Virus record (IMG/VR): IMGVR_UViG_3300025450_000158 | Location: 1-20,200 of that record | DNA from: a virus | Length of the DNA stretch: 20,200 nt | Strand: one strand, 5' to 3' | Shown: positions 387 to 16,896 of the stretch, in pieces | How positions within the stretch are numbered: the first letter of the stretch is position 1 | Layout: each line of letters opens with the position of its first letter | Program-made: the position numbers and the translations under genes | Notes under the pieces: model-generated | The model's database searches: none | What the model was told of the DNA's origin: nothing | What the model saw: the letters and a program-made list of their open reading frames with translations, nothing else

Positions 387-1520
387 ATGGGACGATATAA
401 TACGGTAATAGCGACGTCAACCGCTATCGCAGGCACATATACAATGCCAGCACCTTTTGCTGGTATTCAAGAACTTGGAGGTACAGCACCCTATACGGTT
501 ACAATGCCTAGCCCTGTGTTATTTCCAGGTACTACACAAACTTTTTACAATACAACAAGCGGCGTAGTAACATTGTCATTGAGCGGTGTAACTCCTGCAG
601 GTAACATTATAGGACCAGCAACTAACAATACATCTGTTCAAACTTATGCTATGCCTACTGGTGCAATTTTTACAGTTTACTCAGATGGTGTAAATTGGTT
701 AAGTATAAACAATGACAGCGGTGGTCCATTCTATGCTACTACAGGTAGTTTTAGTGGAGTGTTGACCGCTACTGGCGGCATTTCAGCTACTACAGGTGGC
801 AACAATCAAACTTTTAGTACAACTGGTAGTGCTACAATCAGTTTAAGTTCGGGCGGTATTGGTAGTATTGCCAACATGACCATTGGTAGTAGTAGCCCTC
901 AATCGGGTGCATTTACATCTTTAAGTGCCAGCAGTGCTGTAACACTAACTGGCGGTGGTGCTGCAACAGCTTATAATACATCGGGTGCAGCGTTATTAGT
1001 AACAGGTGGTGCTGGTATTAGCGGTGCTTTGTATACAAACAGTACAGCACAATTTGCCAATACATTAACTGTAACTTCAGGCGGAGCAAGTATTACAGGA
1101 AGTGTATCATTACCAACTTCTAGCGGTACTACACTTACTGTAAGTTCAACAGCCCAAGGTTCAAATGCCAGTACTGGTAACGCATTGCAAGTTGCAGGTG
1201 GTGTAGGTATTCAAGGAACATTATATACTGTAGGTTTAACAGAAACATCTAGTATAGCATTTAAAGAAAATGTTATGCCAATTGGTAATGTATTAGATCG
1301 AGTAATGAACCTAGTTGGTGTCACTTATGATCGTAAAGAAGGTCGTAAAAACGAAGCTGGTTTAATTGCTGAAGAAGTTTATAAAGTTATTCCAGAAATT
1401 GTTAGCACTGACAAAGAAGGCAAACCTTACGGTATTCAATATACAAAATTATCAGTATATTTGTTAGAAGCTATTAAATCATTGAAACAAGAAATCAATG
1501 AATTAAAGGGATCAAAGTAA
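387..1520 (+). CDS. Tail fibre/adhesin with C-terminal Peptidase_S74 chaperone domain
   Basis: A 377-residue fibre-type protein. Residues 1-285 are almost entirely Gly/Ser/Thr/Ala/Val, with a repeated unit ending in LLVTGGAGISGALY (about 203-216) and again LQVAGGVGIQGTLY (about 267-280), a repeat style common in cyanophage and pelagiphage fibres. Residues from about 286 form the intramolecular chaperone domain (Peptidase_S74): S288 and K293 have the Ser-x4-Lys spacing of the self-cleavage dyad, followed by KENV, the GLIAEEV segment (325-331) and a C-terminal coiled coil (about 359-375). By family knowledge this domain trimerises, helps the shaft fold and is then released by autoproteolysis. 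Unlike the next three fibres it has almost no Trp and a diverged SSIAFK motif instead of SDxRxK. Confidence 0.85.
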   Translation: MGRYNTVIATSTAIAGTYTMPAPFAGIQELGGTAPYTVTMPSPVLFPGTTQTFYNTTSGVVTLSLSGVTPAGNIIGPATNNTSVQTYAMPTGAIFTVYSDGVNWLSINNDSGGPFYATTGSFSGVLTATGGISATTGGNNQTFSTTGSATISLSSGGIGSIANMTIGSSSPQSGAFTSLSASSAVTLTGGGAATAYNTSGAALLVTGGAGISGALYTNSTAQFANTLTVTSGGASITGSVSLPTSSGTTLTVSSTAQGSNASTGNALQVAGGVGIQGTLYTVGLTETSSIAFKENVMPIGNVLDRVMNLVGVTYDRKEGRKNEAGLIAEEVYKVIPEIVSTDKEGKPYGIQYTKLSVYLLEAIKSLKQEINELKGSK

Positions 1521-1521
1521 C

Positions 1522-2553
1522 ATGGCAAATTTGCAAAGCACTACGGCTACCTCGTTAACAATTAACAGTAACACAGTTTGGACCACAAATAATACAACTG
1601 GTCAAAACTCAGGTGTTAGTGCCGACTTGATTGGCGGTTATGACATAAGATATATTTCTTCGTGGAATAGTTTTAATAACGGTGTTTGGCAAAATATAAA
1701 TAGTTTCAGTTTGGGCGGATCTACAAGTAACTGGTACCCTATGATTATCGATGGTGCTAGAAATGCTGACGGTACTAACGGTCTTGACATCAGACGTTTA
1801 AGTGTTCACCAAGATGGAAGTAGTTACGGTGCATTTTTTGGTACTATTCGTTATCGTGCAGGAACTACTAACTTCTGGGAAGTTACAGAAAACTGGGGTT
1901 CAGGAACTTACTATCCATTTTTAGCAAACGTACAATGTTCTACTACAGATACTAAGGTAGCTGTATGGTTGCGTGGCGGACTAAGTTATTACTATAGATT
2001 CCATAGTGCTGAATCTTTTACAGATAATAGTGCTACAGTTCCTAAGAGTTTTAGTGGCGGCACTGTTACCAGTGTTGCTAGTAGTAGTATTCCTAGTTCA
2101 AGTCATTATTATCAACATAATATATGTAGTCAAGGTTACAACTTAGGACAAAGCGGTTATGGTTGGGGAACAGTATGGAGTGTTAACACAATCAGTACTA
2201 GTTCTGACCTTAGATTAAAAGAAAGTTTTGACGTTAGTTTTGGTTTAGAATTTGTTATGTTACTAAAACCCAAGAGCTTTACTTGGAAAGCACATCCGCA
2301 TTGGGATGAACCTGTAGTTAACAGCATTGATACAAGACGTCATCATGGATTTGTAGCTCAAGAAGTTAAAGAAGCAATGGATCAATTAGGCATAACAGAA
2401 GATGAATTTGGTGGGTTAGATACACGAAATCCAGATTTCTATTATGTTAGATATCAAGAATTTGTTCCAATTTGCACACAAGCTATACAAGAACAACTAG
2501 CAGATCTAGCCGATGCTGAAGCACGAGTAGCAAGATTGGAGGCAATGGTATAA
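1522..2553 (+). CDS. Trp-rich tail fibre with S74 chaperone domain, paralogue 1
   Basis: A 343-residue fibre, first of three tandem paralogues. A short N-terminal segment (LQST...VW...G...GYDIRY, about 4-44) is shared with the next two and probably attaches to the virion or to a partner fibre. A central region (about 70-160) with DIRR, FxxxxRYR, WExxENW and WLRGGLSYYYRF is shared too and may be the receptor-binding part. The S74 domain starts at SSDLRLKE, with S228 and K233 as the likely self-cleavage pair, then HGFVAQEV (275-282) and a terminal coiled coil. Eleven Trp residues in 343 is far above the normal frequency. The stop overlaps the next start by one base (TAATG). Confidence 0.85.
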   Translation: MANLQSTTATSLTINSNTVWTTNNTTGQNSGVSADLIGGYDIRYISSWNSFNNGVWQNINSFSLGGSTSNWYPMIIDGARNADGTNGLDIRRLSVHQDGSSYGAFFGTIRYRAGTTNFWEVTENWGSGTYYPFLANVQCSTTDTKVAVWLRGGLSYYYRFHSAESFTDNSATVPKSFSGGTVTSVASSSIPSSSHYYQHNICSQGYNLGQSGYGWGTVWSVNTISTSSDLRLKESFDVSFGLEFVMLLKPKSFTWKAHPHWDEPVVNSIDTRRHHGFVAQEVKEAMDQLGITEDEFGGLDTRNPDFYYVRYQEFVPICTQAIQEQLADLADAEARVARLEAMV

Positions 2554-3587
2554 TGGCATCATTACAAAGTACAGCCGTAACAGGATCACTTACCGCAGGC
2601 GGATATGGTGTTTGGTATCATGGAAACGATGGCACTGGAACGGGTCTTAACGCAAACGATATTTGGGGATATGACCTAAGATACTTAGACGCAAATCGTC
2701 GATTAACTTACGTAGATTTAACAAGTGGTAGTACTGGTACATTTTATCCTATGACATTTGCTTCGGCAGGTGTTGCTCCTGCTAACAATACAAATTCCAA
2801 TCAATGGGGTTCTGGTGTTAGCGCACTACATATTCGTCGTACAAACGTTCACCAAGAAGGTGGAGGTTACGGTAGTTTATTTGGACGCTTGCGTTATCGT
2901 TCTTCACAGTGGGGACATCATCAGTCTTTCTGGGAACTAACGGAAAACTGGGGCAATGGAAGCTATTACCCTTTTATAGCGGGAGCAGCACTACAAGGCG
3001 AAACAAGTTATGCTTGTATTTTCCTTAGAGGAGGTTTAAGTTATTGGTATAGATTTGATAGTCCAGACCAATGGGAAAATTCTTCAGTGGCAACAACAAA
3101 GCCATTTCCTAACTACAATAATACAACACTAACTGTAAGTTCAGTGACTACATCTAGTATTCCAAGCAATGCTAGATACTATGCACAAGGTGTTAGTGTC
3201 AAAAGCGGATACAATTTTGGGGATTCAAACTTTAGATGGAACGTAGTATATGCAACAGCAACTAATGCTAGCTCTGATGCAAGAATAAAAGAAAATATTG
3301 GAGTAGTATTAGGAACAGAATTTTTAAGTTTATTGAAACCTGTAAGTTATGTTCGAATAGGAGATGCTGATCAACGCAGAGCTCATGGGTTTGTAGCACA
3401 GGAAGTCAAAGAAGCTATGGATCAATTGGGTATTCCGCTGTTTGGCGGATATGATGATGCTAGTCCAGATAAGTTAGCATTGCGTTACAGTGAATTTATA
3501 TCAACATTAATTAAAACTCTACAAGAAAAACGCGAAAGAGTTGTAGCTCTTACAGCTAAAATTACAGCATTAGAGGGTAAGGCATAA
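2553..3587 (+). CDS. Trp-rich tail fibre with S74 chaperone domain, paralogue 2
   Basis: A 344-residue paralogue of the preceding gene with the same order: N-terminal LQST segment, GYDLRY (39-44), central HIRR/RYR/WELTENW block (about 93-134), FLRGGLSYWYRF (157-168), then the S74 domain beginning SSDARIKEN, with S241 and K246 as the predicted cleavage pair, and a HGFVAQEV segment. It has nine Trp residues. The copies differ widely at synonymous positions and in loops, so the duplications are old or diversified by recombination. The start is supported by GGAGG at 2538-2542 and the TAATG overlap with the upstream stop. The copies may give alternative adhesins or a hetero-oligomeric tip; the sequence does not distinguish these. 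Confidence 0.85.
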   Translation: MASLQSTAVTGSLTAGGYGVWYHGNDGTGTGLNANDIWGYDLRYLDANRRLTYVDLTSGSTGTFYPMTFASAGVAPANNTNSNQWGSGVSALHIRRTNVHQEGGGYGSLFGRLRYRSSQWGHHQSFWELTENWGNGSYYPFIAGAALQGETSYACIFLRGGLSYWYRFDSPDQWENSSVATTKPFPNYNNTTLTVSSVTTSSIPSNARYYAQGVSVKSGYNFGDSNFRWNVVYATATNASSDARIKENIGVVLGTEFLSLLKPVSYVRIGDADQRRAHGFVAQEVKEAMDQLGIPLFGGYDDASPDKLALRYSEFISTLIKTLQEKRERVVALTAKITALEGKA

Positions 3588-4687
3588 TGGCATCGTTAAA
3601 ATCAACTAATATAGCAACCAGTGCAACTGTTGGCGGCGGGGCAGTTTGGCACACAGGTAATCAAGGCAGTACAAGCGGAGCAGATACAGGTTTAAATGCT
3701 GGACAAATTTGGGGTTGGAATGACTACGAGTTTGACATTCCATCTAGGACCACTGCACTTACATTAGGTGGCAACACTAGTAACTATTATCCAATTATAT
3801 TTGCACAAAATGCATGGGATGCTGGAAGTTATGGAACGCCTCTTATTATGGATATCCGTCGTACAGATGCTGACCAAACAGCTGACGGTGCAGGCACCGG
3901 TACATTCTTCATGAAGTTGAAGTACAGAGCAACTAACTGGGGATTCCATCAGAATCACTGGGAAATTTTAGAAAACTATGCCAGCCCAACCGCAACACAA
4001 TATCCATTTGTTGCTAACGTAGCACAACCTGGAACCAGTGCCTGGCTGGGCGTATGGATGAAAGGCGGTTTGCACTATCACTTTGCGTTTGGTACGCAAG
4101 CAGCTGTATTTGATAGTAACTGCACTACGTCACGAAACAAAGGTGTAGGTAACGGATCTGGCAGTTATTTAAACGGTGATAGTTTCTGTTGGGAAAACCC
4201 AACACTAACTGGTGGTGGTGTAGGTTATCAAACTACATTAAGTGTTCCTAGTTATGCTACCTACTTCCAACAAGATTTGTGTTCAAAAGGTTATGACTTA
4301 GGACAAAGTAGTTTCCGTGCAAGTAACGTATATGTAACTAGTACTAGCATAAGTTCTGACGAAAGAGTTAAAGACAATTTCGGTGTTACATTTGGAACAG
4401 AATTTATAGAATTATTAAAACCAGTTAGCTATACATTTAAAGGCGACTGGGACGATGGTAAATTACACTATGGTCTACTAGCACAAGATGTTAAAGATGC
4501 TATGGATCAGTTAGGAATTACAGAAGACGAATTTGCTGGATACGATGGAAGAAATCCTGATATGTTAAGCCTGTTGTATGATGAATTCATTCCTATTATT
4601 GTAAAAACCATCCAAGAAGAAGAAAATATTATGACAAATTTAAAAACAAGAATATCAGCATTGGAGGCAAAACATGGCGGTGTATAA
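3587..4687 (+). CDS. Trp-rich tail fibre with S74 chaperone domain, paralogue 3
   Basis: A 366-residue third paralogue, slightly longer because of an insertion at about 176-215. It keeps the N-terminal LKST segment, an IWGW motif (41-44), the central DIRR/YRATNW/HWEILEN block (about 89-130), WMKGGLHYHF (157-166) and the S74 domain starting SSDERVKDN, with S257 and K262 as the predicted autocleavage pair. The tail EAMDQLGITEDEF of paralogue 1 reappears here as DAMDQLGITEDEF. A C-terminal heptad-like helix ends the protein. It has ten Trp residues. The last 14 bases overlap the next gene. Confidence 0.85.
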   Translation: MASLKSTNIATSATVGGGAVWHTGNQGSTSGADTGLNAGQIWGWNDYEFDIPSRTTALTLGGNTSNYYPIIFAQNAWDAGSYGTPLIMDIRRTDADQTADGAGTGTFFMKLKYRATNWGFHQNHWEILENYASPTATQYPFVANVAQPGTSAWLGVWMKGGLHYHFAFGTQAAVFDSNCTTSRNKGVGNGSGSYLNGDSFCWENPTLTGGGVGYQTTLSVPSYATYFQQDLCSKGYDLGQSSFRASNVYVTSTSISSDERVKDNFGVTFGTEFIELLKPVSYTFKGDWDDGKLHYGLLAQDVKDAMDQLGITEDEFAGYDGRNPDMLSLLYDEFIPIIVKTIQEEENIMTNLKTRISALEAKHGGV

Positions 4688-4970
4688 TCTTATAAAATCT
4701 GCAGATTCAAGCAGTGTTACTATTTTAAATAACGGTATTGAAGTAAGTCTCTACACAGATGTTTTTGATACTGGCACAGATATTCATGGCTGGGGCGGCT
4801 GGAAAGGCTCTCCTGATCAAATCGCATTTGCATTATGCTATGATTATACTAAAGATTTAGAAAAATCCAAAGCAGCTTATCCTACCTTAGCTCAACTCAT
4901 AATCAACGCGGCACCTTTTGAATTAAACATAAGTACTGGGTCTATAGATTTTGCACTTAGCCAGATTTAA
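4674..4970 (+). CDS. Unknown 98-residue protein following the fibre genes
   Basis: No family recognised. The protein is soluble-looking, with a central aromatic/glycine segment GWGGWKG (about 39-45) and an acidic N-terminal half. The start at 4674 lies inside the end of the third fibre gene (14-base overlap) and has a clear GGAGG at 4663-4667, so translation is plausible and coupled to the fibre. Its place at the end of the fibre run suggests a fibre-assembly or hinge role, as for small genes after T4-type fibres, but this is position only. It is the last gene before the hairpin at 4976-4997. Confidence 0.6.
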   Translation: MAVYNLIKSADSSSVTILNNGIEVSLYTDVFDTGTDIHGWGGWKGSPDQIAFALCYDYTKDLEKSKAAYPTLAQLIINAAPFELNISTGSIDFALSQI

Positions 4971-4975
4971 TCCCG

Positions 4976-4997
4976 TTAAGTGCTATCTAGCACTTAA
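4976..4997 (+). terminator. Perfect intergenic hairpin, possible terminator or mRNA processing site
   Basis: The sequence TTAAGTGCT...AGCACTTAA forms a perfect 9-bp stem with an ATCT loop. Six T residues (5005-5010) follow after a 7-base gap that contains the GAGGA ribosome-binding site of the next gene (start 5011). The gap makes a classic intrinsic terminator uncertain; a transcript-stabilising or processing stem-loop is as likely. It sits at the boundary between the fibre run and the enzyme run and occupies most of the largest plus-strand gap in the window. Confidence 0.5.
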
Positions 4998-5010
4998 TTG
5001 AGGATTTTTT

Positions 5011-5697
5011 ATGTCTGTGAAAATTGGTTGGTTTGTAAACAGTGAACCAGCATGGAACGAGTTGGTATATCAACAACCCGAACCGTTAGCATTGAATCAA
5101 GATCATTCTGCTCAATATGTTCGTTGTCCTGCTACAGCACATTATTGTAAAAATACGTTTATAATTAGATCAGGTTACGATCTACATCTACGTTTTGATA
5201 AAAATACCAAAACGATCAAATATATCGACGGCAGTCTCGATCCTAGTTATGTAAAAGAATTACTAGTTCAATTTCACCCCAACGAGTGGCGCAACCCGCA
5301 CACTCCTATTTTTCAACTACATTTAGATAATGGATTTGTTGCAGACGAACCTGTCTGGATGGAAGTTTTTCCAGCATTTTATCAAGCTCCTAAGATTCCG
5401 GGACATATAATTCCAGGAACATTTGATATCTATAGTTGGCAACGTATGCTTAGTTATAGTTTTGAATGGATGAATCCTGACGAAGACTATCACATTAGTC
5501 GAGGTGATCCACTGTATAGTGTTAGATTCAGATCAAGGGATCCGGGAGATAGTTTTAAAATCGAAACAATTAAAATGGACGACCGATTAAAAAACGATAT
5601 TGGAAAATGTCAAGGTGTTAAGTTTGCTTTAAAAAATTATAGCTGGCGCCTAATGGCCTTAAATAGAACACTACGCCCAAGGAGATACATTAAATGA
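5011..5697 (+). CDS. Unknown 228-residue protein at the head of the enzyme cluster
   Basis: No family confidently recognised. The protein has seven Trp residues, no signal peptide and no transmembrane helix. Features include PATAHYCKNTFIIRSGYDLHLRFD (split here: PATAHY about 40, SGYDLHLRFD about 54-63), a VWMEVFP segment (about 117), an IPGTFDIYSW stretch (about 136-145) and RGDPLYSVRF (about 165-174), a mixed beta-rich layout. ATG at 5011 has GAGGA at 5000-5004, six bases upstream. The stop overlaps the next gene by four bases (ATGA), so it is translated together with the 2OG-oxygenase-like and halogenase genes and probably belongs to the same function. It could be an enzyme, a carrier or a substrate-binding partner. 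Confidence 0.65.
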   Translation: MSVKIGWFVNSEPAWNELVYQQPEPLALNQDHSAQYVRCPATAHYCKNTFIIRSGYDLHLRFDKNTKTIKYIDGSLDPSYVKELLVQFHPNEWRNPHTPIFQLHLDNGFVADEPVWMEVFPAFYQAPKIPGHIIPGTFDIYSWQRMLSYSFEWMNPDEDYHISRGDPLYSVRFRSRDPGDSFKIETIKMDDRLKNDIGKCQGVKFALKNYSWRLMALNRTLRPRRYIK

Positions 5698-6470
5698 ATA
5701 TGGAATTAATCGACATTTATCCTGTTAAAATTGCTACTTATGATCTAAAGCAATTATTAACAGTTGATGAATTTATTTCACTACAAGACGCAATTGAAAA
5801 TACAAGTGCAGATACACACGAACGTTTGAAAAAACCACAAAGCCCGCCAGCAACAACTGACAGTACTTTGTTTTTAAATGAAAATCATTCTGCTCTTATG
5901 AAAGTTAAAAAAGATTTTCATGAAAGTTGTATTGCACTTCATGAAGCAAAGTTTCCAAATTTAGCTGGAAAGTTTCATGTTTACGATAGTATTTGTAAAG
6001 GTATTGTTATTAACTCAATGACAACAATGCAAGATACTATGAGCAACTATCCATGGCACTATACTGGAATTGCTGTTATTAGAGCTCCTGAAACTTTACC
6101 CGAAGGACAAGGGGATATTGTGTTTGTTGATCCACTACCTGTTAGTGAAAAAGGCGACCAACATGGTGTAATTGCAAAACGCGGCAATATGACTATATTT
6201 CCATCATGGTTGAAATATCGTTTTAGACCAATTGCGTATCAAGAAACTGAATACGATACTGTCATGATACTAGTTATGAATAGTTTTGTTGTTCATGAAA
6301 GATTAGAAGACTATGCAGCTAAAGAACGTGCGGCCTATAAAGGCGAACCAACAGAAGCTCCACTATTCCAATTAGGGCCAACAGGTGATCGCGGAGAAAC
6401 TGAAATTGATATTAAACCTCCTACAGATAGTTCACTTCCATCTGAGGGGATAGATATTGGCCGTTTCTGA
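5694..6470 (+). CDS. Degenerate 2OG-Fe(II) oxygenase-like protein (probable pseudoenzyme)
   Basis: A 258-residue protein whose middle follows the pattern of the small 2OG-Fe(II) oxygenases elsewhere in this window (YP near the N-terminus, PWHYTGIAVI, GDIVFVDP, a gap, MTIFPSWL, then a final beta strand with MNSF). The catalytic residues do not line up. PWHYTG (120-125) has only one His where relatives have HxH; Y175 stands where FPSWLxH relatives have the distal metal His; and no Arg precedes the last strand, where relatives use one to bind 2OG. It also has a roughly 50-residue charged tail after about 205. It may be a scaffold or substrate-recognition partner of the intact oxygenase just downstream. 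AAGGAG at 5679-5684 favours the ATG at 5694 over the one at 5700. Confidence 0.65.
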   Translation: MNMELIDIYPVKIATYDLKQLLTVDEFISLQDAIENTSADTHERLKKPQSPPATTDSTLFLNENHSALMKVKKDFHESCIALHEAKFPNLAGKFHVYDSICKGIVINSMTTMQDTMSNYPWHYTGIAVIRAPETLPEGQGDIVFVDPLPVSEKGDQHGVIAKRGNMTIFPSWLKYRFRPIAYQETEYDTVMILVMNSFVVHERLEDYAAKERAAYKGEPTEAPLFQLGPTGDRGETEIDIKPPTDSSLPSEGIDIGRF

Positions 6471-7030
6471 TGAAACACATTGTAGTTGACAACATCGTAC
6501 CTTTACCTTTGCAAGATCAATACGAATATGCTTGCCAAGGGTTTAGCTGGAATTATCTTATATCTACATATAAAGGTACAAATCCAGGTTCTAAGGAAAC
6601 TGAAGAAATATACGATGTTGGCCAACTAGTTTACCCTATTCATTTTAGAGATTATACGACTAGCTTTTACTCTCAATTAGATCCGTTAATATCGGCTATA
6701 TCAAAGATTAAACCTTTATATAAAGATTTGCTAAAAATAAAAGCCAATCTGTTGTGGAGAACTAGAGATTCCAATAACCGTTGGAATACACCACATACTG
6801 ATATAGATAGTGTTGCCAATAAGGATGACATTTTTTGGTCATGTGTGTATTATGTAAATGACTCGGACGGTGATACTTGTTTATTTTACGAAAACGAAGT
6901 AGTACGAGTATCACCTAAAAAAGGCCGAGCTGTATTATTTCCTTCTAGTTTGTTACATGCAGGATCTAATCCTACTGTAAGCCAGCAACGTGTGGTCTTT
7001 AATATAGTATGGAAAACAACACATGATTAA
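6470..7030 (+). CDS. 2OG-Fe(II) oxygenase (HxD...H type)
   Basis: A 186-residue double-stranded beta-helix oxygenase. The metal triad is readable as H109-x-D111 in TPHTDID and H163 in FPSSLLHAGSNP; R174 in QQRVVFNIVW is placed to bind the 2OG C5 carboxylate. CVYYVN (125-130) and LFPSS are the usual flanking strands. The family hydroxylates or otherwise oxidises amino-acid side chains or small molecules using O2, 2OG and Fe(II); the substrate cannot be read from sequence. Its start overlaps the previous stop (TGATG) and its end overlaps the halogenase start by 8 bases. It resembles the 184-residue oxygenase at 12675-13229 more than the PF13759-like ones. Confidence 0.8.
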   Translation: MKHIVVDNIVPLPLQDQYEYACQGFSWNYLISTYKGTNPGSKETEEIYDVGQLVYPIHFRDYTTSFYSQLDPLISAISKIKPLYKDLLKIKANLLWRTRDSNNRWNTPHTDIDSVANKDDIFWSCVYYVNDSDGDTCLFYENEVVRVSPKKGRAVLFPSSLLHAGSNPTVSQQRVVFNIVWKTTHD

Positions 7031-8531
7031 AAAAATTGTTATTGTCGGAGGCGGAACAGCAGGCTGGATTGTAGCTAACTGTATGCAATCATTTACTTTA
7101 GACGATATGGAAATTAGTCTATTAGAAAGTGATAAATTACCTACAGTTGGAGTCGGTGAAGGAACTAGTAGCCACTTTTGGGCATTTTTAAATCGTTGGT
7201 GTCCTTGGTTAAATGAAGCAGAATTTATTCGAGAAACAAATGCTACATTTAAAATAGGCAGCAGATTCGAAGACTGGACACATCCAGGTAGTGTATATAC
7301 AACTCCTAACGATAATATCGGACATCCTATGGAGTCTAATAACTATTGGCCTCCAGATTTTGATGCTATGCGAGCTTATGCTGTCTTGCACGGGTTATCA
7401 ACAAACCCTAGTATTCAAAGTAAATTGATGGACACATTAAAAAGTCCTTATTTTTCAGGACAAAGCACTGGACATAGTTACCACTTTGACGCTGCCTTAG
7501 CACTAAAATATTTTCATAGTAAAGCAGAAGCTGCAAATATTAAAAGAATTATCGGAACAGTAGTAGATGCAGATGTAGAAGAATCTGGTCTAGTCAAATG
7601 TTTGAATTTAGATGATGGCAGAAAAGTCTATGCTGATATGTTTATCGACTGTACAGGCTTTTTAAGATTATTTCCTAAGATATTTAATATTAAATTTATT
7701 AGTTGGAAGGAACATATCCTCGTAGATCGCGCCATTAACTTTCCTATCCCAATTAAAGAAACTGAAAAAATACCTACACATACACTAAGCAAAGCCATGC
7801 CAAACGGTTGGCTATGGCGAGTACCTACTTTTACCAGATATGGATCTGGTTACATTTATAGTAGTGATCACATTACAACTGATCAAGCATTTGATACACT
7901 ACAAAAAGACTTTGGTGCAGATAGATATCTACAAGAAATTAAGTTTGATACAGGATATTTAGAAAAAGGATGGGTCAATAATGTTTTATTCAGCGGATTG
8001 TGTGCTGGATTTGTTGAACCTATGGAAGCAACTAGCTTGCACAGTAGTATATGTAACCTATTAGTGTTCATGAAAGACTATTTTAGACCCGACATGGATT
8101 TACTTGATACAAATTTACATAAACGCTACAACGAAAATTACTGGAAACCCTATTGGGAAAGTGTACGAGATTGGATATTACTACACTACATGGGCGGAAG
8201 AGAAGATACTGAATTCTGGCGCACAGTGAAGAATATGAAATTGCCTGATAGTCTTGAAAGTAAAATGCAACTATGGAAATTTAGACTACCAAGAATTATT
8301 GAAACTAGCCACATGGATCAAGTGTGGCAACATACACTAGTATACGGTGTGTTAGACGGTTTAAAATTGTTAGACAAAAATCTAGCAAAAAAAGAATTAG
8401 CCTACTACGATTTAGAACATATAGGTAAAGAGATTTACGAAAAATATAATAATTTAGCAAATAAATTATATCTAGGAGCAAAGGATCACAGGAGACATTT
8501 AACTGAGATTAGAAACGGGGCCAGTACATGA
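7023..8531 (+). CDS. Flavin-dependent tryptophan-halogenase family protein 1
   Basis: A 502-residue protein of normal family length (Trp_halogenase, PF04820). The N-terminal FAD-binding loop GGGTAGW is at 9-15 and GVGEG at 43-47. K77 in ETNATFK is in the place of the catalytic Lys of PrnA/RebH. GWLWRVP (262-268) fits the halogenase WxWxxP signature that keeps the FADH2 oxidation site apart from the halogenation site. E335 in EPMEATS corresponds to the conserved Glu that pairs with the Lys. All key residues are present, so activity is likely. The enzyme needs reduced FAD from a reductase, and none is encoded here. Preferred halide and substrate are unknown; the related cyanophage enzyme VirX1 prefers iodide. 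It overlaps the second halogenase by 4 bases. Confidence 0.88.
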   Translation: MIKKIVIVGGGTAGWIVANCMQSFTLDDMEISLLESDKLPTVGVGEGTSSHFWAFLNRWCPWLNEAEFIRETNATFKIGSRFEDWTHPGSVYTTPNDNIGHPMESNNYWPPDFDAMRAYAVLHGLSTNPSIQSKLMDTLKSPYFSGQSTGHSYHFDAALALKYFHSKAEAANIKRIIGTVVDADVEESGLVKCLNLDDGRKVYADMFIDCTGFLRLFPKIFNIKFISWKEHILVDRAINFPIPIKETEKIPTHTLSKAMPNGWLWRVPTFTRYGSGYIYSSDHITTDQAFDTLQKDFGADRYLQEIKFDTGYLEKGWVNNVLFSGLCAGFVEPMEATSLHSSICNLLVFMKDYFRPDMDLLDTNLHKRYNENYWKPYWESVRDWILLHYMGGREDTEFWRTVKNMKLPDSLESKMQLWKFRLPRIIETSHMDQVWQHTLVYGVLDGLKLLDKNLAKKELAYYDLEHIGKEIYEKYNNLANKLYLGAKDHRRHLTEIRNGAST

Positions 8532-9973
8532 AGAAATTTTTTATAGCAGGTGGTGGAACAGCAGGGTGGGTAGTAGCTAGTATGTTAGCTGCACTTTATA
8601 AAGGTTGTGATATTACTTTGGTAGAAAGTCAAGATATTGGCACTATTGGTGTTGGTGAAAGTACAACTCCTGCTATATTAGATTTTTTAAATCTCAGCGG
8701 AATTAATCTAATTGATTTTATAAATTATACCGACAGCACTATTAAAGTTGGAATTAATTTTGAAAATTGGACAGGCACTGATAACAAATATTTTCACGGT
8801 AATAGAGATTATCTACACAGCTTTGATCTTACTAAACAAAATGATTTCTGGGGAGTAAGTTACTTACACGATTTTTTAGAAGACGAACACAAGTACAGTA
8901 ATTATGTAAGAGATAATCTAGTTCCTTTTAATCGTAAAGGATATCAAGTTGGCGCCCATGCTCTTCATATCAATGCCAACAAATTAGTAGAATATTTGCG
9001 TAAATTCTTACAAGGAAAAGTAACTGTAAAAGAAGGGTTGATTACAGAAGTTAAAAAAGACGAACAAGGAATCTCTAGTGTAAAATTAGAAAGCGGTGAG
9101 GTATTTTCTGCAGATGTTTATTTTGATTGTACTGGATTCAAGCGTGTAATACATCAACATGTCGATTCAAAATGGCATAGTCTTAAAGATTTGCTACCAG
9201 TAAATAGGGCTATCCCAAGTCCATTTGATTGGAACGATCCTATGAATACTACACACTCTAGTGCATTGTCATCTGGATGGGTATGGCAAGTTCCGTTAAG
9301 CAATCGTGTAGGTTCAGGATACGTATACAGTGAAGAGTTTAGCAAGGACCCAGAAGCAGAATTTGTAGAATATATTAAACAAAAATATAATCGAGTTGTA
9401 GAACCTACACGTACAATTAAATTCGAAGCAGGGTATGTAAAGAACCCTTGGTCAAAAAATGTGGTATGTGTCGGTTTAAGTAGCGGGTTTGTAGAACCAT
9501 TAGAAAGCACAAGCATACACATGATGTTTCATCAGATTATGTGTTTTTCTCAACTATATGATGGCTTAATTAGTGCTAACATCAATAATGTTTACAATAG
9601 TTATATGATAGACATGTACGATGATACAGCTAGCTTTGTTAAAATGCACTATCTTGGCGGTAGAAATGATACTGAATTTTGGAAGTATATGCAGAATTCA
9701 AAAAATACTCCTAGGCTAGACAACTTATTATCTATATGGAATAATCATTTCCCAACAGCAGATCATATTGGACAAAATAAAGACCGTGTAGTCGGTTATA
9801 GATTGTTTGCATTACCTGCCTGGATACAAGTATTAGTTGGGATGAAAATTATTGACAAGTCTTTGATTAAAAAATATATCGATTTTAATCAAATACCTAA
9901 GAGTGAAGTAGTAGAAGAACAGTTAGTTACACAACGAGAGTTCTTAAAGGCTATACAAAATCGGGCCCAATAA
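8528..9973 (+). CDS. Flavin-dependent tryptophan-halogenase family protein 2
   Basis: A 481-residue member of the same family. The FAD loop GGGTAGW is at 8-14 and GVGES at 41-45. K73 (STIK) is the predicted catalytic Lys. WVWQVP (251-256) is the halogenase signature, and E326 in EPLESTS is the conserved Glu. It is clearly diverged from halogenase 1 and shares more with halogenase 3 (LPVNRAIP / LPIDRCIP, QVPLSNRxGxGYxYS, 481 residues each), so the two neighbours are not a recent tandem duplication. It is the last plus-strand gene of the group; its 3' end overlaps the convergent minus-strand hydroxylase by 23 bases. Confidence 0.88.
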   Translation: MKKFFIAGGGTAGWVVASMLAALYKGCDITLVESQDIGTIGVGESTTPAILDFLNLSGINLIDFINYTDSTIKVGINFENWTGTDNKYFHGNRDYLHSFDLTKQNDFWGVSYLHDFLEDEHKYSNYVRDNLVPFNRKGYQVGAHALHINANKLVEYLRKFLQGKVTVKEGLITEVKKDEQGISSVKLESGEVFSADVYFDCTGFKRVIHQHVDSKWHSLKDLLPVNRAIPSPFDWNDPMNTTHSSALSSGWVWQVPLSNRVGSGYVYSEEFSKDPEAEFVEYIKQKYNRVVEPTRTIKFEAGYVKNPWSKNVVCVGLSSGFVEPLESTSIHMMFHQIMCFSQLYDGLISANINNVYNSYMIDMYDDTASFVKMHYLGGRNDTEFWKYMQNSKNTPRLDNLLSIWNNHFPTADHIGQNKDRVVGYRLFALPAWIQVLVGMKIIDKSLIKKYIDFNQIPKSEVVEEQLVTQREFLKAIQNRAQ

Positions 9974-10562
9974 CCCAGCCAACTAAAGACTTTCTTACAC
10001 CTTTAGTAACAGGAGTTACGCTATGAGGTAAGAACGAAGGGAAGAACACAATCTCATTTTGTTTTAATCTAACAATATTACCAGGATTGGAATCGTGAAA
10101 TACTAAATTTCCACCTTCAAATTCACTAGGATCATTTAGTTGGATACTGAAAGATAACTTTCTGCATCTACCGTTTTCTCCTTTAAGAGTTGCATCGGTA
10201 TGCATGTCGTAAAATCCTTGATCTTCCGAACGATATATAGAATACTGTAGTGTTTGAATATGTGTTAGTGCAAACTTATAATAGCCAGCATTAACTTCAT
10301 TTACAGCATCGGATAATCTTTTATAGATGTTGTCAAATGTAGGAGTTTCTTCTAAGAATACGATATCTGTTCTGCGAAGTCGACTATTTCTAGATCCACC
10401 GTTTTCTTTTATCTTAGCAGAAATTATTTGCTCAGGATGTTGAGATATATAATTTTCTATAAAATTGTGTTGCTCTTGAGTAAAAATATCTCTTGATACA
10501 ACACACCATGCATCTTTAGTTTTAGATGGATGTTCTAAAGCCCACATATCACTTATTGCCAA
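9951..10562 (-). CDS. PKHD-type 2OG-Fe(II) hydroxylase (YbiX/PiuC-like)
   Basis: A 203-residue oxygenase ending the minus-strand operon. The triad is H121-x-D123 (YDMHTD) and H180 (FLPHSVTPV), with R190 (GVRKSLVGW) as the 2OG-binding Arg. LSFSIQLND, EFEGGNL and VFFPSFLPHSVTPV are hallmark strands of the prolyl-4-hydroxylase-like PKHD family. PKHD hydroxylases are frequent in marine T4-like phages; their substrates there are unknown. The start overlaps the upstream methyltransferase gene by 14 bases, and the 3' end overlaps the plus-strand halogenase 2 gene. No terminator hairpin is visible at the junction. Confidence 0.87.
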   Translation of the reverse strand: MAISDMWALEHPSKTKDAWCVVSRDIFTQEQHNFIENYISQHPEQIISAKIKENGGSRNSRLRRTDIVFLEETPTFDNIYKRLSDAVNEVNAGYYKFALTHIQTLQYSIYRSEDQGFYDMHTDATLKGENGRCRKLSFSIQLNDPSEFEGGNLVFHDSNPGNIVRLKQNEIVFFPSFLPHSVTPVTKGVRKSLVGWVIGPDFV

Positions 10563-11469
10563 AAGATCCTGGTAGATTCTTTGGAATGTTTACACTAGTT
10601 CTAAAACTCATTAAGTTTTCGTCGATTATAAAACCAAGTTCTAGCTCAGTTTTTTCTTCCATAATTGTATATTGGTTAAATCTTAAAAAACTATTACCCC
10701 AGTGACGTTCAATCGAAGGACGATACAAATTTAAACGAGAGCCGTTAGATACTATATAAGGCTTGACCCATATACTATCGATTCTAGTAGATTTTTTGAA
10801 TACGTTACGTTGTTCTAATATACCTTCGGGGTAATTGTAAAAATCCCAAGGACCAAAATTAAGCCAATCATTATGGTCGTCTGGTATTACATCCTCGACA
10901 ATAGTTTGCCCAGTTTGCATTGCTTCTTCAAATGTAGAACCTAAAGAATGTATATAGTTTATAGAATCAACATTGTCGCTATCATAAAATTTAAATTCAA
11001 ATCCAAAACTATCAGGTACTAGTTTACCATCAGGCTTGAGCCATTTTTTAACATCGTTTAATGTATGCAGACACATTTCGTCTAATAAAAATGGTCCAAA
11101 AATTTCATGAATAATTACATCTACCTGTTCAGGCAACTCTAGTGCCCAACTGGCAGATTCTATAATTTCAAGATTATCTAATTTTTCTTCGTCTTTTAAT
11201 TTTTGCAATACTTGTACGGCTACTGGATTTGCTTCGACAGCATACACTTTACTAGCGCCTGCTCGGATAGCATACAAAGATAGTAAACCTAATCCTGCAC
11301 CGATATCTAACACAACTTTTCCCTTGCAAGAATGTTTGATAGACTTTTCGTAGAATAAATTTCTAGTCTTATCTGTCATTAATCCTCGATACGAGCCAAC
11401 ACCTGTGTAATAGGCTTGTATTTGCCCCATTCTAAAATTTTGAAAATCTTCTAGTTGTTCTTTATTCAT
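10549..11469 (-). CDS. Protein arginine methyltransferase-like enzyme (class I SAM-dependent)
   Basis: A 306-residue protein with a full PRMT-like architecture. The N-terminal helix region has YY (20-21) and LMTDKTRNLFY (30-40), like the PRMT segment before motif I. Motif I, VLDIGAGLG, is at 53-61, and E79 in VEANP is the ribose-binding acid. The double-E loop HEIFGPFLLDE has E122 and E131, nine residues apart as in PRMT1 (E144/E153). RHW (255-257), in the C-terminal beta-barrel, matches the THW loop. The family transfers methyl groups from SAM to arginine guanidine nitrogens of proteins. PRMTs are mainly eukaryotic and rare in phages. The double-E pair argues for a guanidine substrate; a small-molecule substrate is possible. 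It overlaps both neighbours (4 and 14 bases). Confidence 0.82.
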   Translation of the reverse strand: MNKEQLEDFQNFRMGQIQAYYTGVGSYRGLMTDKTRNLFYEKSIKHSCKGKVVLDIGAGLGLLSLYAIRAGASKVYAVEANPVAVQVLQKLKDEEKLDNLEIIESASWALELPEQVDVIIHEIFGPFLLDEMCLHTLNDVKKWLKPDGKLVPDSFGFEFKFYDSDNVDSINYIHSLGSTFEEAMQTGQTIVEDVIPDDHNDWLNFGPWDFYNYPEGILEQRNVFKKSTRIDSIWVKPYIVSNGSRLNLYRPSIERHWGNSFLRFNQYTIMEEKTELELGFIIDENLMSFRTSVNIPKNLPGSFGNK

Positions 11470-12077
11470 TTTAAGTCCACATTAAAAGCGATACATCTTC
11501 GTTCGCCGTCACCCTTGAAAGGATAAACTGTATGCATTATATATGCCGGAAATATGTACATATCCCCTACTCTTGGACAAATTGCTCTTGGGCCAAGATT
11601 TTGTAAACTAGGAACATGAAAATTGCCAAATATAAAATGCAAACAACCATCCAAGCCGTTATTACCATTTTTTTGTATAGTGTTGTATGAGTCTTGAATT
11701 TGTTTTGGAACTTTAAGATATAAAATACCACTGAGTAATGCATCGTGTGTATGTACTGGATTATAGTCACCGGCATATTGACTAACAATCCAAGATTTTC
11801 TAACTTCTAAATGCCTAGCTTCTATGTTTCTAAAAAATGGATCATAACTAGATTTTAAATAATCCACAACATATGGTAGTACATCAAACGATTCTGAAAA
11901 CTCAAATTCTCGTTGTTCGCCTTCTTGTATTAGCCCAGCTAAAATAGGGCTCATGTCTGCACCTGTTTTAAGGTATTCGTCAGACTCTTTTAATAAACTA
12001 TCTATTTCAGTTTGTTTTAATTTGGCCTTTAAAATATCTAAGGACCAAAGTTTACTAATCTCAGCAAATCTAGCCAT
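11466..12077 (-). CDS. 2OG-Fe(II) oxygenase, PF13759-like (HTHD motif)
   Basis: A 203-residue oxygenase of the small TIGR02466/PF13759-like kind. NPVHTHDALLSGILYLKVP (106-124) carries the proximal metal ligands (H109, with H111 or D112 as partner). H182 in YIMHTVYPF is the distal His, and R193/R194 precede the last strand IAFNVDL to bind 2OG. PRVGDMYIFPAYIMH (168-182) is the usual FPxxxxH segment. It has an acidic, helical N-terminal third and a longer loop between the ligand strands (about 125-165) than its neighbours, perhaps a substrate lid. The 8-base overlap with the upstream oxygenase gene and 4-base overlap with the PRMT-like gene show coupled translation. Confidence 0.82.
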   Translation of the reverse strand: MARFAEISKLWSLDILKAKLKQTEIDSLLKESDEYLKTGADMSPILAGLIQEGEQREFEFSESFDVLPYVVDYLKSSYDPFFRNIEARHLEVRKSWIVSQYAGDYNPVHTHDALLSGILYLKVPKQIQDSYNTIQKNGNNGLDGCLHFIFGNFHVPSLQNLGPRAICPRVGDMYIFPAYIMHTVYPFKGDGERRCIAFNVDLK

Positions 12078-13801: not shown

Positions 13802-15243
13802 CGTAATATACTATCAATAAATTTTCTATGATCTACAGCCCTAGTGAGATCTTGTGCCCTACGCTGTCTAATAGAGTAGGATTCTTGCCTAGCACGTTCT
13901 AATAAATTTCTTTGTGTTAATATTTTCTTTATTTTATCTCTATTGCATTTTTTAAGACCTACTGCAACTCTTGTAAAATTTCCAAAACTAAACATTACAC
14001 CTAAACTATCATAAAATGTTAAAAAATCCATTTGAGCTTTTTCATCTAGATCTGCAACTATGCTTGGAGTATTATTGGTCATATAACGCCAAAACTCGCT
14101 ATCTGTTCTCTTTGTAGTATAACAGAATCTCAAATACAAGTATACATTTTCATAAAATTCTTGCATAATTTTATTGTAATTAATTCTATCTAAACTACAA
14201 TAACCTAAACTGTTTAAATGTACAAACTGCCTAACTTGCTCAACTGTGTGATGTATGTTTGTTGCTTCTAATGGTTCTGTGAATCCGCTTGCTAGTCCAA
14301 CAGCAATACAATTTCCAACCCATTGATCCTTCCAGTATCCGCTTTTAAAAGATAGTACACGGCTAGTGTTGGTTAAATCTTTTTGATAAGTTTGTTTAGT
14401 CCACTGAGAAAATTTACTAAATGCTTCATCGTCGGATGTAAATTCGCTAGAATACAAATAACCTGCTCCCCAACGATTGCTTAACGGTACTTGTAGTATC
14501 CACCCATCTGCGCTTGCTTCTGACGTTGTATAAGGAGGTTGTTTTGTAAATTCATATTCAACTGGATTAGGAATACAGCGGTCGATTGGCAACCAATCAC
14601 TTTTGTCAACCCACTCTGTATTCATGTGTTTCATCAGTACAGTTTGAAATCCGCTAGCATCTATATAAAAATCAGCTGATAATTTACGCCCGTCATTTAG
14701 TACTATATGATCTATATTTTCATTATTCTTTACTACTGAGTCTACAACACCGTCTGTAATAGTTAATTCATTTCGAAATTTATTTTCAATATAACGACTA
14801 AACAATACAGCATCTATATGTAGTGCTTGTCCTGCATTTGGATCTCCAGGAATTAATCCATTGTCCATATATGCGGCATTATACGAAGTATCTGAATCAT
14901 ACTGGTTGTGTGCAATGTCATAAGCAGCTACTAAATTGTAGTAACTGTCTTGATACTGGCTAAAATTATGATAATAATGTTTACCATCATTTAACCAATT
15001 TTTAAATTTAAGTCCTAATTTAACAGTGGCATTAACATTTTTAATTAGTTCTTCTCTTGTAATTCCTACAAGATCTAAATATTCATAAATTACAGGAGTA
15101 AGACTTTCCCCAACACCAATTCCAGGTTTGCTGTGGTCATATACTAGTGTAACATCTACATTAGATTTCCAATATTTTTTAATATAAGTGGCGGCCATAA
15201 TACCTGCGGTACCCCCACCTACAACTAAAATTTTATAAGTCAT
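13798..15243 (-). CDS. Flavin-dependent tryptophan-halogenase family protein 3 (altered WxW motif)
   Basis: A 481-residue halogenase homologue on the opposite strand from the other two. The FAD loop GGGTAG is at 9-14 and GVGES at 43-47. K75 in NVNATVK is the predicted catalytic Lys, and E326 in EPLEATN the conserved Glu. The signature reads GWILQVP (247-253): the second Trp of WxWxxP is replaced by Leu (L250), while halogenases 1 and 2 keep both. The family therefore fits, but the activity could be altered (different halide or substrate, or oxidation instead of halogenation). It is flanked by 2OG oxygenases with 4-base overlaps on both sides. A disabled enzyme is less likely because the Lys-Glu pair is intact. 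Confidence 0.85.
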   Translation of the reverse strand: MTYKILVVGGGTAGIMAATYIKKYWKSNVDVTLVYDHSKPGIGVGESLTPVIYEYLDLVGITREELIKNVNATVKLGLKFKNWLNDGKHYYHNFSQYQDSYYNLVAAYDIAHNQYDSDTSYNAAYMDNGLIPGDPNAGQALHIDAVLFSRYIENKFRNELTITDGVVDSVVKNNENIDHIVLNDGRKLSADFYIDASGFQTVLMKHMNTEWVDKSDWLPIDRCIPNPVEYEFTKQPPYTTSEASADGWILQVPLSNRWGAGYLYSSEFTSDDEAFSKFSQWTKQTYQKDLTNTSRVLSFKSGYWKDQWVGNCIAVGLASGFTEPLEATNIHHTVEQVRQFVHLNSLGYCSLDRINYNKIMQEFYENVYLYLRFCYTTKRTDSEFWRYMTNNTPSIVADLDEKAQMDFLTFYDSLGVMFSFGNFTRVAVGLKKCNRDKIKKILTQRNLLERARQESYSIRQRRAQDLTRAVDHRKFIDSILR

Positions 15244-15836
15244 TTAGTTAAAGCAAACCACGAAGACAATATATACTTGGTGTCTTTAAGTGGAGGATTG
15301 CCCCTGTGTGTATGCGTAAACGAACTAGGAAATATAACAACAGTCCCTTGACGAGGAGGAATTCTCACACTTTGATGAATGAATTCTGTTTCGCCACCGT
15401 CATTGATGTCGTTCAAATAGATAATAATACTTAAAAGTCGATTGGCTTCTTGTATACTGTTTTGTTCATGATGCCACATATGATAACCTTGACCAGGTTT
15501 TGTACGCTGTATCTTAAATGGCAATATTTGTAAATTTTTAGCAAGATGACTAACACCATTTACCGTGTCTGCATACATGGCAATACATTTAGTTACCGCT
15601 TGTATTGCAGGACCAGCTAACTGTCCATTAGTCAACATTCGATTAGTGTCTAGTTCTTCTCCTAGATAGTATTGTTGATCGTCCTTGGCACTGATAGGAA
15701 CTTGGTCTACTTCTTGTCTGTTAATAGTTAAATCGTAACCATTTAAATATTCAAAGTAAGAACAAACTTTATTACAATACTCTTTTGATAGCTCATTAGG
15801 AAAAACTCCAATTAAATTTTCTATAGTCGATGTCAT
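15240..15836 (-). CDS. Prolyl-4-hydroxylase-like 2OG-Fe(II) oxygenase with HxE motif
   Basis: A 198-residue P4H-like oxygenase. GYHMWHHEQNS (117-127) supplies the proximal ligands, best read as H122-x-E124, with Glu in place of the common Asp. LSIIIYLNDINDGGETEF (135-152) is a very characteristic strand-turn-strand. FPSSFTHTHRGNPP (169-182) gives the distal His (H177 most likely, H175 possible), and K187 in TKYIL takes the 2OG-binding position, where P4Hs use Lys instead of Arg. The family hydroxylates Pro or other side chains in proteins; the phage substrate is unknown. Translation is coupled to both neighbours by ATGA overlaps. Confidence 0.85.
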   Translation of the reverse strand: MTSTIENLIGVFPNELSKEYCNKVCSYFEYLNGYDLTINRQEVDQVPISAKDDQQYYLGEELDTNRMLTNGQLAGPAIQAVTKCIAMYADTVNGVSHLAKNLQILPFKIQRTKPGQGYHMWHHEQNSIQEANRLLSIIIYLNDINDGGETEFIHQSVRIPPRQGTVVIFPSSFTHTHRGNPPLKDTKYILSSWFALTK

Positions 15837-16450: not shown

Positions 16451-16896
16451 ATCAACTCCACTAAGTCGAATACAGTTTGAAGTTTTGTACGTATTGTTTT
16501 GCTCGAAAAGCTATTACGCAGACCTTGGTGTAAGGGTTTAGGCGCACGGTCGATAGTTGCCCATGCCCAAGCAATGTGTTCATCACTTAGTTCAGGAACA
16601 AATTCTTTTTCTATAACACAGAGATAGGTATGAAAGTTAAACACTTTATCATTTGATACAAATGTTTCTAACGGAATTGTTTTTAAGATTTTTGGTATTG
16701 TACCAATTTCCTCAGCAATTTCTCGTTGTAAGCCCTGCCATGGAGTTTCGCCAGTGATATTAGTACCACCAACTAAACCCCAAGTTCCTTCATGCTTGCC
16801 ATGTGCTTTTTGTAACAGTAAGAATCTTCGTGTAGATTTGGCGTAGAACAATGCTCCGCTACAAACTATCGATTCTTTTACAAGACTAGACTCCAT
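16447..16896 (-). CDS. Nudix hydrolase
   Basis: A 149-residue Nudix-fold protein. The Nudix box runs from G44 to about T66 (G-x5-E-x7-REIAEEIG): G44, E50, R58, E59, E62, E63 and G65 fit the GX5EX7REUXEEXGU pattern, which gives the Mg-binding helix. GTWGLVGGT before the box and AWAWATID (109-116) near the C-terminus are typical of MutT-like and mannosyl-hydrolase-like members. It would cleave a nucleoside diphosphate linked to another group (modified NTP, NDP-sugar, NADH or ADP-ribose); the substrate is not evident. It joins gp15 (19-base overlap) to the oxidative-enzyme run, so transcription probably continues from the morphogenesis genes. Confidence 0.88.
   Translation of the reverse strand: MESSLVKESIVCSGALFYAKSTRRFLLLQKAHGKHEGTWGLVGGTNITGETPWQGLQREIAEEIGTIPKILKTIPLETFVSNDKVFNFHTYLCVIEKEFVPELSDEHIAWAWATIDRAPKPLHQGLRNSFSSKTIRTKLQTVFDLVELI

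Follow-up and report, generated by a model that had tools for sequence, protein, structure and literature searches.

A phage cassette linking tryptophan-rich S74 tail fibres with halogenases and a PRMT-like methyltransferase: are the fibres substrates?

What do the halogenases carried by phages modify? Although such enzymes have been annotated for a long time, there is no agreement on their biological target, and the parts of the literature consulted here offer antibiotic protection, secondary metabolites and capsule decoration. The question is raised by a 20,200-nucleotide stretch of viral DNA (IMG/VR record IMGVR_UViG_3300025450_000158, positions 1 to 20,200), which was analysed whole and is referred to below as the window. 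It contains three tandem genes (fib1, fib2 and fib3) for tail fibres rich in tryptophan (Trp) and ending in a Peptidase_S74 (S74) domain; the nearest halogenase gene (7023-8531) lies on the same strand ~2.3 kb downstream, within a run of mostly overlapping genes. A sequence-only reading of the locus had proposed that these fibres are substrates of the adjoining enzymes. Here we describe the gene set to which the fibres belong and weigh that proposal.

Trp-rich fibres and linked enzyme genes in three phage lineages

A model of the N-terminal fibre domain, run over the open reading frames of 202 loci, identified three lineages only: the window's virus, L189 (IMGVR_UViG_3300040807_000922) and L196 (IMGVR_UViG_3300010885_014443). 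Contigs of the window's own virus count here as a single lineage. All three are uncultured water-borne phages and carry a common gene set, comprising the fibre or fibres, a DUF6166-like protein, a dUTPase-fold protein, a degenerate 2-oxoglutarate (2OG) oxygenase-like protein, the halogenases hal1 and hal2 and a methyltransferase resembling protein arginine methyltransferases (PRMTs). These genes, and the fibre gene that precedes them in the window, are as follows.

387..1520, plus strand: fibA, S74 fibre poor in Trp, adjoining but not part of the cassette core; PF13884 41.4 bits; 1 Trp; relatives occur without halogenases, e.g. in G003
1522..2553, plus strand: fib1, Trp-rich fibre with a novel N-terminal domain and a C-terminal S74 chaperone; 11 Trp; 43.6% to its L189 counterpart
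2553..3587, plus strand: fib2, Trp-rich S74 fibre; 9 Trp; 44.4% to its L189 counterpart; the lone L196 fibre matches it at 45.8% over 273 aa
3587..4687, plus strand: fib3, Trp-rich S74 fibre; 10 Trp; 41.1% to its L189 counterpart
4674..4970, plus strand: sm, 98-aa DUF6166-like protein, overlapping fib3; in all three lineages; PF19663 22.7 (cut-off 27), L189 orthologue 29.5
5011..5697, plus strand: g5011, accessory protein with a predicted dUTPase fold; phrog_17480; 61-62% in the other two lineages
5694..6470, plus strand: ox5694, degenerate 2OG-oxygenase-like protein; usual iron ligands missing from the alignment
7023..8531, plus strand: hal1, predicted flavin-dependent halogenase of a cassette-exclusive clade; PF04820 325 bits; clade of three at 99/97
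8528..9973, plus strand: hal2, predicted flavin-dependent halogenase of a cassette-exclusive clade; PF04820 323.5 bits; clade of three at 100/99
10549..11469, minus strand: PRMT-like methyltransferase, cassette core; profile match to CARM1 at E 2.6e-28; orthologues at 55% (L189) and 49% (L196)

Among the cassette genes on the fibre strand the order is kept and most genes overlap, and the remainder of the island is exchanged between lineages. In the window, the genes from fib1 to hal2 all overlap apart from a single 40-base gap. L189 has the gene order of the window, and each of its fibres is closest to its own counterpart. Its other cassette orthologues stand at 43% (98-aa protein), 62% (g5011), 43% (ox5694), 57% (hal1), 55% (hal2) and 55% (methyltransferase), and three 2OG orthologues at 44-48%; its gp15 and gp14 are 40% and 50% identical. 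No L189 orthologue was found for hal3, a third halogenase of the window, or for the 2OG genes ox6470, ox9951, ox12070, ox13226 and ox15240. In L196, the fibre is followed by the 98-aa protein, g5011 (61%), ox5694 (32%), hal1 (34%), hal2 (49%), one 2OG gene (38%), the methyltransferase (49%), a Nudix gene (85%) and gp15 (41%); the eight genes that start with the fibre and end just before Nudix are every one a cassette or 2OG orthologue. The tie between the fibres and the adjoining enzymes held for hal1, hal2, the PRMT-like enzyme and the accessory proteins; hal3 and the majority of hydroxylases vary between lineages and fall outside it. It is narrower and tighter than the sequence-only reading could show.

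Four IMG/VR scans, made with the fibre domain, g5011, hal2 and the methyltransferase, converged on the same three lineages. All IMG/VR scans reach relatives through short patterns, and absence from them is not proof. The g5011 scan gave one extra, distant and partial match (22%) in L202, a 90 kb contig; this g5011 relative (L202 9845-10579) adjoins a 2OG-like gene, and no halogenase was recognised in the 20 kb examined. In GTDB genomes, 57 pattern matches to the fibre domain were obtained and none was confirmed. When the N-terminal domains of fib1, fib2 and L196 were compared with a phage collection by tblastn, fib2 and L196 had no match and fib1 had one weak partial match to a Vibrio phage (E 0.009). 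The domain was present in 3/28 whole records, all three with halogenases. Regular occurrence of this fibre type without the enzyme island, which the sequence-only reading had named as evidence against itself, was not found: all three lineages with the domain carry the island.

The halogenases follow the same distribution. A tree built from 57 phage halogenases placed hal1 and hal2 in two separate clades of three, both drawn from cassette phages only, and the hal2 scan fell from 49% within the lineages to at most 36% in 63 further loci. By contrast with this pair, hal3 clusters with halogenases of L055, L080 and S-SRM01, none of which was found to have the fibre domain. Phage G003 (locus L015) provides a comparison without the cassette. 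Its gp14 matches at the window's own bit score (1097) and its gp15 is 99% identical, and beyond its Nudix gene lie different 2OG genes with no halogenase, PRMT-like gene or Trp-rich fibre; it retains a fibA-type S74 fibre with 0.6% Trp. The window's gp15 is in fact nearer to many cassette-less phages (up to 99%) than to L189 and L196 (40-41%). The cassette thus has a patchy distribution relative to the core genome, the pattern that a unit exchanged or lost whole would leave. Taken together, these comparisons make it very likely that the fibre domain, the two exclusive halogenases, the PRMT-like enzyme and the three accessory proteins are co-inherited as a discrete cassette.

A PRMT-like methyltransferase in the cassette

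A profile of the three methyltransferase orthologues was compared with the PDB. All 60 listed matches were arginine methyltransferases, the best being CARM1, and a single sequence matched solved PRMTs at E 7.3e-21. E122 and E131 are invariant in the orthologues and align with the double-E loop of CARM1. H256-W257, a candidate counterpart of the PRMT THW loop, is also invariant and lies beyond the stretch aligned to PRMTs. Profile residues 9-163 alone align with PRMTs; the remainder is divergent. Known PRMTs methylate proteins, and since the cassette enzyme is nearest to these protein-acting enzymes, its sequence suggests a protein substrate and is the strongest hint of one. The IMG/VR scan with this enzyme gave no lineage beyond the same three. 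The gene (window 10549-11469, minus strand) is phage-borne and nearly absent from the phage collection, in which one fragment only matched it, at 24% coverage.

Composition and conservation of the Trp-rich fibres

The Trp counts reported by the sequence-only reading proved exact. The proteins fib1, fib2 and fib3, of 343, 344 and 366 aa, contain 11, 9 and 10 Trp (3.2, 2.6 and 2.7%), compared with 1 Trp in the 377 aa of fibA. Across the three lineages the seven Trp-rich fibres have 2.5 to 3.3% Trp, the L196 share being counted on its 342-aa C-terminal part. For a control set, 71 loci were submitted and 67 S74 proteins were obtained from 65 IMG/VR loci; their Trp content had a median of 0.49%, a 90th percentile of 0.93% and a maximum of 2.34%, and none of the 67 reached 2.6%. 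The S74 proteins of gp15-related phages (n = 10, taken as the longest open reading frame spanning each S74 match) had 0-1.02%.

All four fibres passed the PF13884 (Peptidase_S74) cut-off of 22 bits (38-44 bits), and in the three Trp-rich fibres the match is C-terminal (38.4-43.8 bits). The S74 match starts at a Ser-x4-Lys pair in every one of the four, as had been claimed (S288-K293, S228-K233, S241-K246 and S257-K262), and its Ser and Lys are unchanged in 7/7 Trp-rich fibres. It is the pair expected to catalyse S74 autocleavage. A conserved Ser and Lys of the S74 domain are named in the part of PMC7824862 consulted. Of the aromatic motifs described earlier, WExxENW was present in fib1 (WEVTENW) and fib2 (WELTENW) and is altered in fib3 (WEILENY), and GGLSYYYRF was exact in fib1 alone, the other two copies reading GGLSYWYRF and GGLHYHFAF. 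R112 of fib1 is invariant in the fibre alignment. Compared with the PDB, the fibre profile gave weak matches to S74-type tail-fibre chains, one weak match to a viral outer-capsid protein (E 0.26) and nothing else.

Halogenases of the cassette and of cyanophages

The three halogenases of the window far exceeded the PF04820 cut-off of 21 bits and have the GGGTAG flavin motif. Invariant positions of the orthologue sets were K77, E335 and W263-W265-P268 (the WxWxxP motif) in hal1 and K73, E326 and W251-W253-P256 in hal2; in hal3, L replaces the second W of WxWxxP. The Lys and Glu are the catalytic residues, and WxWxxP a signature, of flavin-dependent halogenases. By profile and motifs, hal1 and hal2 are predicted flavin-dependent halogenases, and Trp halogenation is their predicted reaction. 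As a separate observation, hal2 (8528-9973) and hal3 (13798-15243) showed weak NCBIfam similarity (33 bits) to QhpG and LodB; these are maturases acting on peptidyl Trp, so hydroxylation instead of halogenation is possible.

We also examined 18 halogenase loci, picked to spread genera from the matches listed (60 of 78 phage records). In 7/18, a phrog_863 tail fibre is followed by a phrog_1787 protein, one or two halogenases and then 2OG genes. These seven are cultured cyanophages: Syn10, S-SZBM1, P-TIM40, S-CREM1, Sf-FR1, P-RSM6 and S-WAM1. One of the two Syn10 halogenase genes is VirX1 (matching 6qgm over 530 aa). For S-SZBM1, one paper reports detecting no protein of the long tail fibre (PMC9146016). 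The Syn10 locus is L204 6469-10085, and the other six are L213, L214, L216, L217, L219 and L220. The S-SRM01 halogenase is flanked by a tail protein on one side and an annotated adhesin tip on the other. No annotated tail fibre adjoins the halogenase in the other 10/18 loci; three of them (S-PM2, S-RIM44 and Sf-CH3) have an annotated virion structural protein gene starting ~2 kb off. Among VirX1-like records, 20/33 had a phrog_1787 match within ~2 kb upstream (S-RIM44 and Sf-CH3 included, by their second halogenase); the other 13 (S-B64, S-H35, Sf-CH11, Sf-CH1a and the S-MbCM6 group) had no such match among the matches listed (60 of 90), and phrog_1787 relatives also occur in records outside the VirX1-like matches (S-RIM2 group). 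A halogenase at the side of a fibre is thus a recurring, non-universal theme, and the position of VirX1 after a fibre bears on the question of its native substrate.

Accessory proteins and neighbouring genes

The 98-aa protein passed the DUF6166 cut-off in L189 and fell below it in the window. The AlphaFold model of g5011 had a predicted local distance difference test (pLDDT) score of 71.8 and matched dUTPases by Foldseek (E 7.6e-5); by VIA-align the match had a Z of 9.1 and a root-mean-square deviation of 3.1 over 128 residues. On this model g5011 is classed as an accessory protein of predicted dUTPase fold; a dUTPase function was considered and dropped. Members of this family occur also in halogenase-free 2OG islands, e.g. 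that of G003, and the dUTPase-fold-like family phrog_17480/phrog_7084 is large and divergent across phage 2OG islands with and without halogenases (window 5011-5697, L015 3916-4695, L204 10069-10857). Profile comparison of g5011 with a 262-aa cyanophage family aligned 35 columns at a probability of 66.9%, and intermediate sequences matched both models, so that kinship is likely, if weakly shown. In the alignment of all three ox5694 orthologues, Tyr replaces the distal His and HxD is missing; ox5694 is probably a pseudo-enzyme conserved in the three lineages. We infer that g5011 and ox5694 are non-catalytic helpers.

From the left, the plus strand of the window carries fibA, the three Trp-rich fibres, the 98-aa protein, g5011, the 2OG-like protein, a 2OG oxygenase, hal1 and hal2. 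On the minus strand, the right side holds two virion genes (gp14-like and gp15-like) together with a Nudix gene, and beyond Nudix follow a series of 2OG-Fe(II) oxygenases, hal3 and the methyltransferase. The features outside the cassette core are as follows.

4970..5012, plus strand: RNA hairpin and T run, downstream of sm and upstream of g5011; folding energy -14.6 kcal/mol, z -5.15
6470..7030, plus strand: ox6470, 2OG-Fe(II) oxygenase with no orthologue in the other lineages; PF13640 36.1 bits; a different 2OG gene at this place in L189
9951..10562, minus strand: ox9951, 2OG-Fe(II) oxygenase of the variable island part; PF13640 60.6 bits; no L189 orthologue
11466..12077, minus strand: 2OG oxygenase common to L189 only; PF13759; 48% in L189
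12070..12690, minus strand: ox12070, variable 2OG oxygenase; PF13759
12675..13229, minus strand: FlmC-like 2OG oxygenase common to L189 only; NCBIfam NF052475 E 3.4e-10 (below cut-off); 48% in L189
13226..13801, minus strand: ox13226, variable 2OG oxygenase; PF13759
13798..15243, minus strand: hal3, halogenase outside the cassette core; PF04820 302.6 bits; groups with L055, L080 and S-SRM01
15240..15836, minus strand: ox15240, variable 2OG oxygenase; PF13640 54.8 bits
15833..16450, minus strand: 2OG oxygenase present in all three lineages; PF13759 67.6 bits; 44% in L189, 38% in L196
16447..16896, minus strand: Nudix hydrolase at the island border; phrog_1198; after gp15 in most gp15 loci
16878..18314, minus strand: gp15-like tail sheath stabilizer, core gene; phrog_227 and phrog_11196
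18434..19888, minus strand: core gene for a gp14-like virion structural protein (gene number as labelled by us); phrog_11591, 301.6 bits

The hairpin, which sits in the 40-base gap, is not conserved in L189 or L196, was unlisted in a terminator scan and had no Rfam match. It is a possible attenuator or terminator and, from its place between fibre and enzyme genes, may keep the enzymes at a lower expression level than the fibres. At the other end of the island, L196 9949-11746 pairs a Nudix gene at 85% identity to the window with an adjoining gp15 at 41%, which suggests recombination at this border. Millard in 2009 is said to have placed the hyperplastic region of cyanomyoviruses between g15 and g18; that placement did not apply here, as in G027 the sheath-like gene lies beyond gp14, on the opposite side from the island. 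The window also recurs within longer contigs from other samples (IMGVR_UViG_3300025773_000007, 62,496 b; 3300006127_000014; 3300025411_000752), which makes an artefact of a single assembly unlikely.

Discussion

We propose that the Trp-rich fibres are part of a cassette inherited as a unit, in which an adhesin would travel with its own modifying enzymes. The fibre would be made, folded and released via its S74 chaperone; aromatic side chains exposed on the fibre domain would then be targets of hal1 and hal2, for halogenation or, less probably, hydroxylation; fibre arginine (Arg) would be methylated by the PRMT-like enzyme, and a 2OG enzyme might hydroxylate the fibre. Both ox5694 and g5011 could assist substrate docking, and the modified surface could alter receptor binding or stability. 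Direct modification of the fibres by the cassette enzymes, whose activities are predicted from sequence, is supported by the recovery of the same three lineages in four scans, the exclusive halogenase clades, the joint absence in G003, the protein-type methyltransferase, the overlapping genes and the fibre-side position of VirX1. We give it an even chance. Its wider form, in which aquatic-phage adhesins carry halogenated aromatics and methylated Arg made by enzymes of the same cassette, and the native substrate of VirX1-type enzymes is likewise the neighbouring tail fibre, is more tentative.

Several observations weigh against the fibres as substrates. The three lineages found with the cassette are few, and linkage by itself does not identify the substrate. 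The compact L196 has one 811-aa fibre with a single domain copy and S74. Among gp15-related records (those judged long enough out of 80 gp15 loci, plus L005), 15/26 have a halogenase and 1/26 the fibre domain, which is missing from 14/15 of the halogenase-bearing records; two of those 14, G002 and G004, are fragments with gp15 99-100% identical to the window's. In the 63 more distant halogenase loci, our own models found an S74 gene in 4 and a phrog_863-type fibre in none. The idea that halogenase clusters generally stand beside fibres was dropped on these counts, the phrog_863-type model being possibly insensitive. The control S74 protein with 2.34% Trp comes from L089, an 11 kb locus without a halogenase. 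Trp occupies all 7 fibres at 2/31 Trp-bearing alignment columns, W20 and W119 of fib1, and 6/7 fibres at two more; at several other conserved Trp columns some copies carry Tyr or Phe instead, a behaviour typical of structural aromatics. As most of these positions tolerate the exchange, most fibre Trp look structural. An AlphaFold fold of the fibre (7 sequences, pLDDT 45.5) was set aside. Given the aromatic exchanges and the frequency of halogenases in relatives without such fibres, Trp content did not hold up as the mark of a target and was dropped as proof. Should Trp be the residue modified, the prime candidate sites would be W20 and W119; Tyr, Arg and Pro are further candidates.

Three other explanations were weighed. 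The cassette enzymes could make or tailor a small molecule during infection (a free Trp derivative, an antibiotic-like metabolite or a sugar decoration), the fibre travelling along as the same host suits both. The PF04820 family includes free-Trp halogenases, and the S-SSM7 halogenase sits among carbamoyltransferase and sugar genes; for the SSM6a halogenase cluster, the consulted part of a review (PMC7824862) expects either a halogenated metabolite or the decoration of a capsule, and that of the S-CREM1 paper proposes pyrrolnitrin-like protection (PMC9964418). Family profile searches of the window's proteins, however, showed no carbamoyltransferase or sugar gene in the cassette, the core includes a PRMT-like enzyme, and hal1 and hal2 are confined to phages with the fibre domain; we consider a small-molecule product unlikely. 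A less probable alternative is another protein target, either a further virion component (neck, baseplate or fibA) or a protein of the host's surface or cytoplasm, with the fibre merely co-occurring. The PRMT-like enzyme implies a protein substrate and names none, and VirX1-type halogenases accompany an unrelated fibre type, but relatives of fibA, gp14 and gp15 are widespread without halogenases and, of the structural proteins, it is the fibre domain whose occurrence matches that of hal1 and hal2 exactly. The least probable is chance linkage at a fibre-to-neck hot spot that collects enzymes with unrelated targets, the Trp richness being structural: the island is hypervariable, as is g15-g18 of cyanomyoviruses in the consulted part of PMC2984593, and most conserved Trp positions accept Tyr or Phe, yet four scans gave the same three lineages, the same genes persist while their neighbours change, and G003 lacks fibres and enzymes together.

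A proposal of tail fibres as halogenase targets was not met in the consulted parts of the open-licence literature on phage halogenases, their native substrates, and PRMT with fibres. The strict link between a halogenase pair, a PRMT-like enzyme and a fibre domain, together with the fibre-side position of VirX1, makes the target question testable on cultured cyanophages. If fibre modification is confirmed, phages would vary their receptor-binding proteins chemically as well as genetically, and the proteins that steer halogenases to folded protein targets would be useful as tools.

Comparison with known systems

Among the closest arrangements is the VirX1 locus of Syn10, P-TIM40, P-RSM6, S-WAM1, S-SZBM1, S-CREM1 and Sf-FR1, where halogenases likewise follow fibre genes and a small protein and precede 2OG oxygenases, and where four loci have a 262-aa protein remotely like g5011. 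The VirX1 loci differ in their fibres (phrog_863/Gly_rich_2), their small protein (phrog_1787) and the clade of their halogenases, and no PRMT-like gene was seen there.

In the consulted parts of PMC10858898 and PMC10286304, flavin-dependent brominases of ribosomally synthesized and post-translationally modified peptides (RiPPs) act on Trp of a ribosomal polypeptide recognised away from the modified site. Their substrate is a leader-bearing precursor peptide and their activity is demonstrated, compared with a 340-aa adhesin and a predicted activity here; membership in RiPP systems was considered and dropped. The maturases QhpG and LodB of tryptophylquinone enzymes (PMC7876137, consulted in part) are flavoproteins that also act on peptidyl Trp. 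They hydroxylate rather than halogenate, and at 33 bits hal2 and hal3 are far under the family cut-offs (240 and 400 bits).

The hypervariable g15-g18 region known in cyanomyoviruses, as described in the part of PMC2984593 consulted, resembles the window in having variable enzyme genes next to gp15 in T4-like aquatic phages, and differs in that the window's island lies between gp15 and the tail fibres. Finally, the cassette methyltransferase resembles CARM1, PRMT1 and PRMT8 in its Rossmann core and in the alignment of both double-E Glu residues, and is set apart from these enzymes by being phage-borne and divergent outside the aligned core.

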